NCBI GenBank assembly: GCA_000310025.1
Contig: FN649736.1
Location: 4,656,315 to 4,720,314 of the forward strand
Origin: Ectocarpus siliculosus
Taxonomy: Eukaryota; Sar; Phaeophyceae; Ectocarpales; Ectocarpaceae
Direction of reading: 5' to 3'
DNA length: 64,000 nucleotides
Shown here one piece after another: positions 1,216 to 64,000 of this stretch; the first letter of the stretch is position 1, and the number at the start of each line of letters is the position of its first letter. A program made the position numbers and the translations under genes. The notes below the pieces were generated by a model. It was given only the letters and a program-made list of their open reading frames with translations, searched no databases and was not told the origin of the DNA.

Positions 1216-9638
<8,423 letters not shown>

Positions 9639-51518: not shown

Positions 51519-51685
51519 GCTGTTGTTGTTGTTGCTTCTATTGTTATTGTTGCTGTTGTNNNNNNNNNNNNNNNNNNNNNNNNNNNNNNNNNNNNNNNNN
51601 NNNNNNNNNNNNNNNNNNNNNNNNNNNNNNNNNNNNNNNNNNNNNNNNNNNNNNNNNNNTTGTTGTTGTTTGTTGTTGCTGTTTC

Positions 51686-60591: not shown

Positions 60592-62989
60592 ACGCACCTC
60601 CAGAGTGGTTCCCGCTGGCGCGCGTATCGCCATCACAGTGTTCTTCTTGTAGCACGGCAACCCGCGGATGTCTTGCTGGTGGAGGAACATATCGCCAGAA
60701 GGCTTGTTCGATTCGGTCGGCTAACAAGTGCGACCAACACATGAAAATTACGGGAGGACAAGGGGTGGGTTGGAGGGGGTGGGTGGGGTCAGGGTAATGG
60801 GGGGGGTGACGGGCGCAGCTGCTGGGAGCGAACAAGACCTCCCTCTGCTACAAAGGCGCGAGAAGAAAAAACACAGCGGAGCATGTGTACTATAATATAA
60901 TAGTGTGGACGGGCTCTAGCGCCCACTACGCCATACCGCCAACACCGCCAACACTCGGCAGTGGAGAGGGGGGGAAACAATCCCGACACACCGCACAACG
61001 AGAGAGGTGAAACTCATGTTCTGGTGAACGATGATAAAAGATCTTGCTGGAGAACTCACAGCACGACAACCGATTTTGCAAGCACAAAGCTACAGGCTCA
61101 AACCATCTCCTCCCTCCCATCTCTTGGCTACCGCTTCCTACCGGCTGGCTGTCACGCCTGCCCCTGGTTTTCACAACATTCCAACATCCCCAGTCAGCCG
61201 GCTTTGTCTCCGCCTCTGCTACACTTTCTCGCTCCATGTGTCTGTCTGTCTGTCCGTCTGTCTGTCTGTCTCTGTCTCTGTCTCTCTGTCTCAATCTGTC
61301 TCGATCTCTCTTGTCTAGCTCTCTTTTTCTCTCTCTCTTCTTCTATATAATTTTCTGAACCTGAGGTAACCAAACGAACTACACTCGTTATCTTCCTCCC
61401 TCCCTTCCTCTCGCAATCTCACCAGCTTCTTGAGCTGCCCCTTGACGTGGGCGATGAGCTGATCCACCCTCGCCTCCTGGTCCACCAGCTCGTGGATCTC
61501 CTCCTGCACACACGCGAAACACATGGGCAAACACCTTAATACATCCTCACAGAAAACCGAATAACGTAGGTTGCATTAGATACGACACCCCCTGGACTCA
61601 TTTTCAACGCCTGATTACTCCACGACGAAGAGGATGCCGAAATCAAATGGTGCGTTTTCGGAAAGCTCTCGACGGAGCGATTCTAACGCCGCCATTTTCG
61701 GCACTACCGCTGCTTTTCCTGCCGGTTAATCGAGATCTGAAAATCGGCCCAGGGGGTGCGATATCTTACGCAACCTACAGTACAAAGCGAAGTGTATCGT
61801 CTCTAAACTACGGGTAAGCATCACCACAGAGCTAAGACACCCCCCGGAAATTATGGTCGAAAATAGGACGAGCGCTGCGGTGTGTTCAAGACGAGAAGGA
61901 ACGCTCCTCTGCCTCAAAACGGATGTTTAGGCAATGGTAATAATCCTTTTGAAACGAAGCATGGGCCGACGAACATCGTTCCGCCCTCAATGGCCTACCG
62001 ACTACGGCACTAGGGCACGCGTTTACATGCGTACCCCCCCCCCCCACCCCCCCCGGCAAGGGGGCCCCCCCCTTTGCCCCCCCCCCTCCCTCTCTCCCCC
62101 CCTTTTTCCCCGGGGCCGAGGGGGGGCGTTGTTTCCCCCGGGGGGGGGCCCCCCCCCAAAACGCCCCCCCTTTTAAAAAAAAGGGGGGTNNNNNNNNNNN
62201 NNNNNNNNNNNNNNNNNNNNNNNNNNNNNNNNNNNNNNNNNNNNNNNNNNNNNNNNNNNNNNNNNNNNNNNNNNNNNNNNNNNNNNNNNAAACCCGGGAA
62301 ACGGGGCGAAAAAGAAAGGAAAAAAAGCAAAAGGAGCGGGCGCAAGGGCGCTGAAAAGTGAAGGGGCCACGCGGGGGGAAACCACCACCCCCCCCGCGTT
62401 AAAGGGGCCGCTAAAGGGGGGGTCCATTCCCCATTCAGGGGGCGAAATTGTGGGAAAGGGCAATGGGGGGGGGCCTTTTCGTTATTACCCCAGCGGGAAA
62501 AAGGGGAATGTCCTCAAAGGCAATAAAGTGGGGAAACCCCAGGGTTTTCCCAGCCACGACGTTAAAAAACGACGCCCAGAAAATTGAAATACGACCCATT
62601 ATAGGGGAAATGGGCCCCTCAAAATCCATCCTCGAGGGCCCCCCAGTGGGCGGAAAAGGTTAAGAAAATGAAAAAAACCCTTTAAAAAAAAAGCAGGGGC
62701 CGACAAAAATCGTCCCCCCCAAAAGGCCCTCCCGACTACGGCATTGGGGCACGGGTTAAAAGGGGAACCCCCCCCCCCCACCCCCCCCGCCACGCGCGCG
62801 CGCTCTCGTGCCCCCCTCCCTCCCTCTCTCCCTCCCTTTGCCCCTGGCTCTCACTTGCGCTTCGTTCTCCTCCTCGGTGTTGCCCTCCCCCAAACCGTCC
62901 CCCTTCCCCTTCCACTGGATGTGGTTCTTGGAGGTCTTGTGGATCAAGCCGATCCCCTCCAGGACATTCGTGATGTCATAAATACGCCG
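57339..62989 (-). CDS. E2F: E2F-family transcription factor, 5' end missing
   Basis: E2F proteins dimerise with DP and switch on S-phase genes; retinoblastoma protein binds and silences them. Exons: 62989-62855 (winged-helix half [16 protein letters not shown] then SKNHIQWKG), 61503-61423 (coiled coil [20 protein letters not shown]), 60720-60598 (marked box [18 protein letters not shown]), 60263-60165 ([24 protein letters not shown]), 59766-59191 (acidic start, then poly-Gly, Gln/Arg-rich and poly-Ala low complexity), and 57455-57339 ([15 protein letters not shown]). All six are multiples of three, giving phase-0 introns. The last motif matches the Rb-binding pattern of E2F1 (DYHFGLEEGEGIRDLF), so this is an activating, Rb-regulated type, not the DP-independent E2F7/8 type. 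The first half of the DNA-binding domain (LDLN...VQK) was not found up to 64000. Exons between 59191 and 57455 and the stop are unresolved. The intron 61504-62854 contains an assembly artefact. Confidence 0.92.
59741..59950. repeat. Local tandem duplication spanning an E2F splice acceptor
   Basis: Two imperfect copies of about 105-110 bp lie side by side: both contain attcgttcgtcaaccttc and, about 75 bp later, aatctgcga. The left copy holds the acceptor of exon 59766-59191. The right copy carries the same acceptor context and the first codons (VDERMEP instead of VDERIEP) but soon reaches a stop. Confidence 0.7.
60560..60590. repeat. (GAT)n microsatellite
   Basis: About ten GAT units lie in the E2F intron immediately next to the donor of exon 60720-60598. 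Confidence 0.95.
61238..61345. repeat. (TCTG)n / CT-rich simple repeat
   Basis: TCTG and TCTC units form a pyrimidine-rich tract in the E2F intron downstream of exon 61503-61423. Confidence 0.85.
62031..62189. other. Low-quality contig end before the gap
   Basis: The sequence collapses into long C and G runs. Its order of features (C-run, A, C-run, then CCCTCCCTCTCTC) is a degraded version of 62770-62840, so it appears to be poorly base-called sequence of the same locus. Confidence 0.75.
62190..62289. other. Assembly gap (100 N)
   Basis: A second run of exactly 100 Ns lies between two low-quality contig ends inside the E2F intron. Confidence 0.99.
62290..62660 (+). other. Cloning-vector contamination (f1 origin to lacZ-alpha to polylinker)
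   Basis: With many base-call errors, this follows a standard pUC/pBluescript/pCR-type vector in order: the end of the f1 origin (ggagcgggcgcaagggcgct, 62333-62352), the lacZ-alpha region (ccattccccattcagg near 62423; cttttcgttattaccccagc near 62475), the M13 forward site (agggttttcccagccacgac near 62541), a T7 promoter (aaatacgacccattatagg near 62587) and a polylinker with gggccc and ctcgag followed by a ccagtg (62612-62649), as in pCR/TOPO-type vectors. The errors are mostly C/G or A homopolymer mistakes, as expected for a poor Sanger read. It is not algal DNA. Confidence 0.92.
62661..62790 (+). repeat. Artefactual second copy of 61927-62060
   Basis: Directly after the vector polylinker, the sequence repeats 61927-62060 with errors: gcaggggccgacaaaaatcg versus gcatgggccgacgaacatcg, then cgactacggcattggggcac versus cgactacggcactagggcac, then the same C-run. 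This is the insert end of the vector-bearing read, overlapping the left contig. Confidence 0.88.
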
Positions 62990-63654
62990 CTAGTAGTTTG
63001 TTGGGCGTAGCGCGGGGGAGGGGGGAAGGTGTCAGAGAGAGAAACGGGGAGGGTAATATGTCTTTCGAGGAATTTCGCTGGGGGTGGTGGAATTGAAGGG
63101 GAACGTTCCTGTGCAGCAGGTATTCTTGTCAAGGAGCAAGTGTGACGTCACGTCCACTACTGCTGAGAATGTCTCCTCAGAATGTCTCGTAGATTGTGAC
63201 GTCAGATGACCTGTCGGAGATCTACAACCTTCGGGGGTGCTGCCACAGATAGAGTTAGCGGTCACGCTGAACCCGCGTACAAATACAACGGGCCAGCTGC
63301 CGCGTCTCTCACAATCCATATCGTACACCGCGTTCTCCCTTTCTCAAGAGAGGTTGAACCACGTGTGTCTTTCAACATTGAGCCGCAGCGCGAACCCGGA
63401 GACGACCGTCTCAATAATTAGCCCCGACAGCAAGACCAGGCTCGCGGCACGTCCAGCTTGATGACAACGCCCCAGCAGAAGACAAAGCTTCTCCAGACCG
63501 CGGAGGTGCGACCGAGCGCAAGACTTGCTGCTGCTGCCACTGGATGGTGGCAGCGGAGAGTTCATGAGGGAAGGCTCGCGCTCCACAATATTCGCATGGA
63601 GGTACGTCTTGACCTCCTGCCTGCAGACAGCCCGTCATGTCTCGCGACGTCTTT
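62990..63654. other. Upstream of the DNA-binding exon of E2F, no exon recognised
   Basis: The acceptor at 62990 shows that a further E2F exon lies to the right, but no frame with the E2F N-terminal helix was found up to the end of the window. Confidence 0.5.
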
Positions 63655-64000
63655 AGAGCCCGCGGAAGCTCTTGCTCAGGCCGACCATGCTACGTAGGCT
63701 AAAGGCGACCCCAAGCATGACGCTTGACCAAGAGCGCGACCTCATCGCCACGTTCTCGGAAAAGCTTCGTGGTCGGAATATCCCTCAGCTTCTGTAGCGT
63801 GGTAGGTCGGTGCAAGAGTGTACGGAGGCTCTACAGACGTTGGAAGACATGGCGTCCGCCACACGGCGCCTTTGAGAGCCTGCTCAAGCTCTTGCTCAGG
63901 CCGACCATGCTACGTAGGCTCACGGCAACCCCGAGCATGAAGCTTGACCAAGAGCGCGACCTCATCGCCACCCCCTCGGTCAAGCTTAATGGTCGGAATA
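63655..64000. repeat. Direct repeat, period about 220 bp, running off the window
   Basis: 63655-63780 and 63875-64000 share caggccgaccatgctacgta, cttgaccaagagcgcgacct and ggtcggaata at a constant offset of 220, with scattered differences. About 94 bp of unrelated sequence separates the copies. The last copy reaches the window end, so the array may continue. Confidence 0.85.

Follow-up and report, generated by a model that had tools for sequence, protein, structure and literature searches.

Leftover cloning vector with a misread duplicate of the flanking DNA in an E2F intron of the Ectocarpus siliculosus assembly

The E2F gene and its intron

The window, by which we mean the whole 64,000-nucleotide stretch analysed here (C11:4656315-4720314), belongs to the Ectocarpus siliculosus assembly that was searched in this work (189.46 Mb, 492 contigs). 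It has two gaps of 100 N, at 51560-51659 and 62190-62289, and the second of these lies inside an intron of an E2F gene encoded on the reverse strand. The exon preceding this intron, at 62855-62989, encodes the second half of the winged-helix domain, and its start at 62989 is predicted from the AG in front of it. The exon matches PF02319 (E2F_TDP) at 1.6e-13 over positions 38-65 of the 65 in the profile. In a six-frame search of the genome, the same exon matches positions 36-65 of the domain with one TAG inside the match, which we read as the match extending a few bases into the preceding intron. The same search placed the first part of the domain (positions 2-37) at C11:4721374-4721481, upstream of the exon on its strand and outside the window. 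A sequence-only reading of this DNA had labelled the gene E2F, and these matches bear the label out. The next exon, from 61503, has a weak match to PF16421 that is below the cut-off (18.9 versus 33.9 bits).

The intron is placed at 61504-62854 on the reverse strand. A GT at 62854 and an AG at 61504 join the two exons in phase, and these splice sites are predicted from the splice signals, the in-phase exon ends and the Pfam matches in the exons. As assembled, the intron measures 1351 bp. Without the 734 bases at 62056-62789 that appear to be in excess, it would measure 617 bp, close to the earlier suggestion that it is about 700 bp too long. Neither of the neighbouring exons falls in the excess stretch.

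A cloning-vector arm to the right of the gap

Directly to the right of the gap, positions 62290-62650 read on the forward strand through what we take to be an f1 origin, then lacZ-alpha, the M13 forward site, the T7 promoter and a polylinker that ends in a BstXI half-site. When 62290-62662 was used as the query of a blastn search against a 7.3-billion-base collection, 1319 plasmid records matched, with a best E-value of 2e-74. Query coverage reached at least 80% in five of the 1319, two of them from E. coli and three from E. albertii, at 78-80% identity; an annotated lacZ underlies one shorter plasmid match (H19). Two of the matching sequences were aligned pairwise with the window. The first (L002) follows it with single-base gaps only through lacZ-alpha, the M13 forward site and the T7 promoter as far as GGGCGAATTGGG, and the second (L003) follows the same block to GGGCGAATTGGG with a few small insertions and deletions. 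Both diverge from the window at GGGCGAATTGGG or a few bases away, where the window goes on into a GGGCCC-TCTAGATGCATGCTCGAGCGGCCGCCAGTGTG polylinker.

With this polylinker as a query, one genome contig matched, the vector-bearing contig L004, into whose polylinker 62610-62650 extends; the same query gave no match among viral contigs. To judge by this order of elements, 62290-62650 is one arm of a cloning vector of the pcDNA2.1/pCR2.1 type. The layout of the arm agrees with these products, whose exact names are presumed. The presence of vector around the gap had already been claimed by the sequence-only reading, and it is confirmed by the 79% blastn match and by the co-linear order of lacZ-alpha, M13 forward site, T7 promoter and polylinker. 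With the arm as query, the sole match in the whole 189-Mb assembly, in a search of limited sensitivity, is the region at 62290 itself. That search covered the one arm only.

A screen against UniVec had been recommended as a check, and it would probably fail at standard VecScreen settings. Under VecScreen-like settings, with a composite vector as the reference rather than UniVec itself, the best score is 19, and the weak threshold of VecScreen for internal matches is 23, so such a screen would probably miss the vector. The longest exact vector match is 15 bases, and megablast against the composite vector gives no match. The failure of the VecScreen-like search is due to the miscalls in the sequence, and being flagged by such a screen is a means of detecting vector, not a property that defines it. 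Default blastn against the same composite vector matches 62290-62648 at 79%. Vector blurred by stutter can therefore slip under a VecScreen-like screen and yet be plain to ordinary blastn, which here finds 79% identity over 360 bases.

Overlapping contig ends

The sequence on the two sides of the gap is the same. An ungapped direct repeat pairs 61925-62113 with 62659-62847 at 77% identity and an offset of 734, and the alignment extends to 62169 and 62903, with 181 identical, 63 mismatched and 2 gapped positions. The local score of 61925-62169 against 62659-62903 is 114, whereas 100 base shuffles gave at most 27.5. Without gaps, 182 of 265 positions are identical at offset 734, whereas the next best offset gives 145 and the mean across offsets 700-769 is 85; in the last 25 of these 265 positions the identity (10) is near chance. 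The sequence-only reading had described a second, degraded copy of 61927-62060. The copy is indeed present, but it begins at 61925 and is longer than was supposed, reaching 62169/62903.

Laid out from left to right on the forward strand, the left contig ends with clean intron DNA at 61925-62033, whose first base corresponds to 62659, where the cloned insert begins. A C12-A-C8 tract follows at 62034-62054, and then a blurred tail at 62056-62189 that is redundant with 62790-62923 (84 of 133 aligned positions identical). Beyond the gap and the vector, a blurred second copy of 61925-62033 at 62659-62767 (30 mismatches) starts the cloned insert and leads into the right-hand copy of the C12-A-C8 tract at 62768-62788. 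Clean intron sequence resumes at 62790-62854, and both the overlap and the base composition suggest that it should directly succeed 62055. This agrees with the earlier expectation that 61,930-62,050 would continue directly into 62,790. The excess at 62056-62789 is made up of 134 bases of tail, 100 N, 369 bases of vector and adaptor, and 131 bases of second copy, 734 in all.

A search of the genome with 61860-62050 listed that sequence itself and two short partial repeats. It missed the blurred copy at 62659, and its sensitivity is accordingly limited. The sequence flanking the gap pairs at the constant offset of 734 and, within the limits of that search, is not a dispersed repeat. As far as sequence can tell, the contig ends truly overlap by about 245 to 265 bases, the gap is a false one, and no missing sequence is expected in it.

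The cloning junction

The second copy begins at the cloning junction, in the order vector, adaptor (if present), insert. When a model of vector, adaptor and left copy was aligned with 62290-62790, the columns comprised 396 identities, 104 mismatches and 3 gaps. The alignment scored 286, where 100 base shuffles reached 9.5 at most. Among the junction models tried, the best consists of BstXI-cut vector, an 8-base adaptor and genomic DNA from 61925, with a score of 117.0; the best model that is free of an adaptor scores 111.0 with 8 fewer reference bases. Compared with the uncut polylinker, the adaptor model scores 50.5 versus 46.5.

A BstXI adaptor at 62651-62658, on the forward strand, thus probably joins the vector to the insert, a reading that depends on 8 bases and on what we take to be the adaptor sequence. 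We grade it as no more than probable, since the adaptor fits at 6 of 8 positions and literature searches for its sequence in print gave, among the matches listed, titles on other subjects. A genome-wide search for the junction, in which up to 2 mismatches were allowed, gave 0 matches, and blurred copies can escape a search of this kind.

Where the blur begins

The two copies are not degraded in the same half: the blur affects the left copy to the right of the C tract, and the right copy to the left of it. The change can be followed in the fraction of isolated bases. In the left contig this falls from 0.50 in the clean part (54 of 108, 61925-62034) to 0.11 in the blurred part (15 of 132, 62056-62189), and in the right contig from 0.55 (36 of 66, 62790-62857) to 0.23 (25 of 107, 62659-62767). 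Here, 62790-62857 was judged clean by its composition and by the coding exon that it adjoins. From the tract onwards, each contig end is unreadable.

That both contig ends fail at a single tract, from opposite sides, points to slippage at that tract. The proposal that two overlapping contig ends failed to merge at a C run is upheld by the 182 of 265 identical positions and by the blur that sets in at C12-A-C8 on both sides; it is presumably because both ends turn blurred there that they were left unmerged around 100 N. Homopolymer errors had also been claimed for this region. The 12 most homopolymer-rich of the 100-base windows (taken in steps of 50 across the 64 kb) do all start between 62001 and 62751, but the errors themselves are one-base stutter substitutions and not errors of run length.

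The error pattern

Errors in 62290-62790 are nearly all substitutions, as the 104 mismatches and 3 gapped columns show. The identity is similar on the two sides of the cloning junction, at 79% in the vector part and 77% in the genomic part, and this equality makes evolutionary divergence hardly the source of the differences. For the right contig, the errors were tallied against a reference of vector, adaptor and left copy, with the C tract excluded. The wrong call equals the true base at +1 (to the right) in 92 of 103 cases, where 34.0 are expected, and the true base at -1 (to the left) in 33 of 103, where 28.0 are expected. If each mismatch is counted once, +1 explains 92, +2 explains 10 and -1 explains 1. 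When the wrong letters were permuted among positions of equal true base, the mean was 42.0 and the maximum in 10,000 permutations was 60, against the 92 observed. No errors fall on the 36 run-internal positions, versus 83 on the 246 isolated bases.

The same holds for the genomic part taken separately. At 62659-62767, the true base at +1 accounts for 25 of the 30 mismatches (10.0 expected), all 30 equal a true base within 2 positions (20.7 expected), and none of the 8 run-internal positions differs. The left tail at 62056-62189 has 44 mismatches, of which 34 match the true base on one side or the other (18.7 expected); the errors there are two-sided, with 24 of the 44 at -1 and 24 at +1, and a single error falls on its 21 run-internal positions. 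As a control, we used seven copies of a diverged transposon-like repeat from the same genome, with 267 mismatches. Of these, 74 agree with the base at +1, where 74.3 are expected. The control is not perfectly flat, with a mild excess at -1 (86 versus 68.0 expected), and its differences inside runs number 10 of 138. The differences near the gap look like the overlay errors of one read and not like mutations, and they continue unchanged across the junction between vector and insert. Asking whether the wrong base is the next true base can help to separate reading errors from real divergence where no traces are at hand.

These results weigh on two readings in which the sequence would be real. In one, 61925-62189 is truly duplicated in tandem and the vector contamination is a coincidence. 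The two copies and their constant offset would fit; the 25 of 30 next-base mismatches and the undisturbed run-internal positions set the second copy apart from the diverged repeat, and it begins precisely at a cloning junction. We give this reading a very slight chance. Slighter still is the chance that vector DNA truly resides in the algal genome, through a transformed line or an insertion, for which nothing more than its presence in the assembly speaks. The arm adjoins the gap on one side, and at its other end a cloning junction leads into the repeated flank sequence; vector and flank copy share the same stutter errors, and the search with this one arm matched nowhere else in the assembly. 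Both readings were rejected on the error pattern that vector and flank copy share across the junction.

Origin of the artefact

We are very nearly certain that the excess is an assembly artefact, in which leftover vector and a wrongly read duplicate of the flank were retained in the E2F intron. The source would be a Sanger clone with a small insert in a vector of the pcDNA2.1/pCR2.1 type, to which genomic DNA from 61925 onwards was joined, probably through a BstXI adaptor. Since the vector stretch extends behind the M13 forward site, the read would not have begun at that primer and would have come through the insert from the right. It would thus have run leftwards from the far side through the C12-A-C8 tract, the rest of the insert and the vector arm, to beyond the M13 forward site. 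Sanger reads extend to at most about 1 kb, which would put the start of the read to the left of about 63300 and the length of the insert at some hundreds of bases.

Strand slippage at the C tract would have overlaid the true sequence with a copy lagging by one base, and sometimes two, and past the tract roughly a fifth of the bases would have been called as a neighbour. Another read, entering the tract from the left, would also have become unreadable. The blurred vector may then have escaped trimming, the overlap may have been too poor to merge, and the scaffolder would have placed 100 N between the two ends.

The same artefact could have arisen with errors from end-of-read signal decay or peak tailing in place of slippage, and we consider this unlikely, while allowing it a much larger share than either of the readings in which the sequence is real. 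Tailing-type miscalls are common at read ends and yield the same calls of the previous base, and a one-sided lag at +1 would fit tailing peaks without any slippage. The errors are also uneven by true base (A 3/113, C 29/122, G 35/153, T 36/89), which slippage alone does not predict. The two-sided errors of the left tail, with one of them inside a run, likewise speak against a simple form of the account. Against decay or tailing, the identity per 50 bases stays flat at 0.72-0.86 over 500 bases without a gradient, and blurring sets in at one and the same tract in both contig ends, which meet it from opposite sides. We therefore prefer slippage at the C tract. Whichever of these caused the miscalls, the artefact is without biological interest beyond the correction of the gene model. 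For the quality of the assembly, it means that an E2F intron is recorded at about twice its real length and that vector, a gap and a false duplication lie inside a gene model.

Repeats near the gap

The C tract is preceded by about 40 bases that recur in other places. Four sites, two in the window and two elsewhere in the genome, have such a sequence with internal differences (AATGGYCTAMCGACTACGGCA ... ATGMGT) running into a long C tract: 61989-62054, 4445-4494, and the loci centred at L007 and L008. With up to 2 mismatches allowed, the inner 15-mer of this element has three occurrences in the window (0.06 expected), one of these being the artefact copy at 62729. We suggest, tentatively and at rather low confidence, that a short dispersed element ends in the C tract at which both contig ends failed. 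Such an element could be a small retroposon, unusual in having a poly-C end, and its copies may coincide with further breaks in the assembly.

The same intron also holds a MITE-like repeat of about 220 bases at 61562-61782, with terminal inverted repeats of about 50 bases that are 75% complementary. A first look at the genome gave 2077 candidates for it, and among the 40 that were scored, those other than the repeat itself are 80-86% identical. TA stands at both ends in five of the seven other copies fetched. Further to the right, a direct repeat of 129 bases pairs 63652-63780 with 63872-64000 at 88% identity and a spacing of 220, and runs off the end of the window. The other gap of the window, at 51560-51659, lies within a TTG trinucleotide array that flanks it left and right, and may hence likewise be an overlap that was left unmerged.

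Comparison with known systems

The error pattern resembles that of Sanger traces with stutter after homopolymers. Stutter peaks are attributed to polymerase slippage and said to be stronger at homopolymers in PMC10643650. Here, likewise, the wrong calls are the neighbouring true base and set in at the C12-A-C8 tract; unlike stutter documented in chromatograms, it is known in our case from the called bases alone.

For the alga Bathycoccus, PMC3491373 describes a 3-kb library that was made with pcDNA2.1 and BstXI and went through the Genoscope assembly pipeline. PMC2270835 describes the use of pcDNA2.1 with BstXI for banana BAC subclones made at Genoscope. The arm found here has the same order as pcDNA2.1/pCR2.1, from f1 origin through lacZ-alpha, M13 forward site, T7 promoter and GGGCCC polylinker to the BstXI half-site. 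It differs from these vectors in that about 21% of its bases are miscalled and only one arm is present. As a whole, the locus is like other false duplications at scaffold gaps, in which contig ends were left unmerged and the same sequence stands on either side of 100 N, and it goes beyond a plain case of this kind in that untrimmed vector is present as well.
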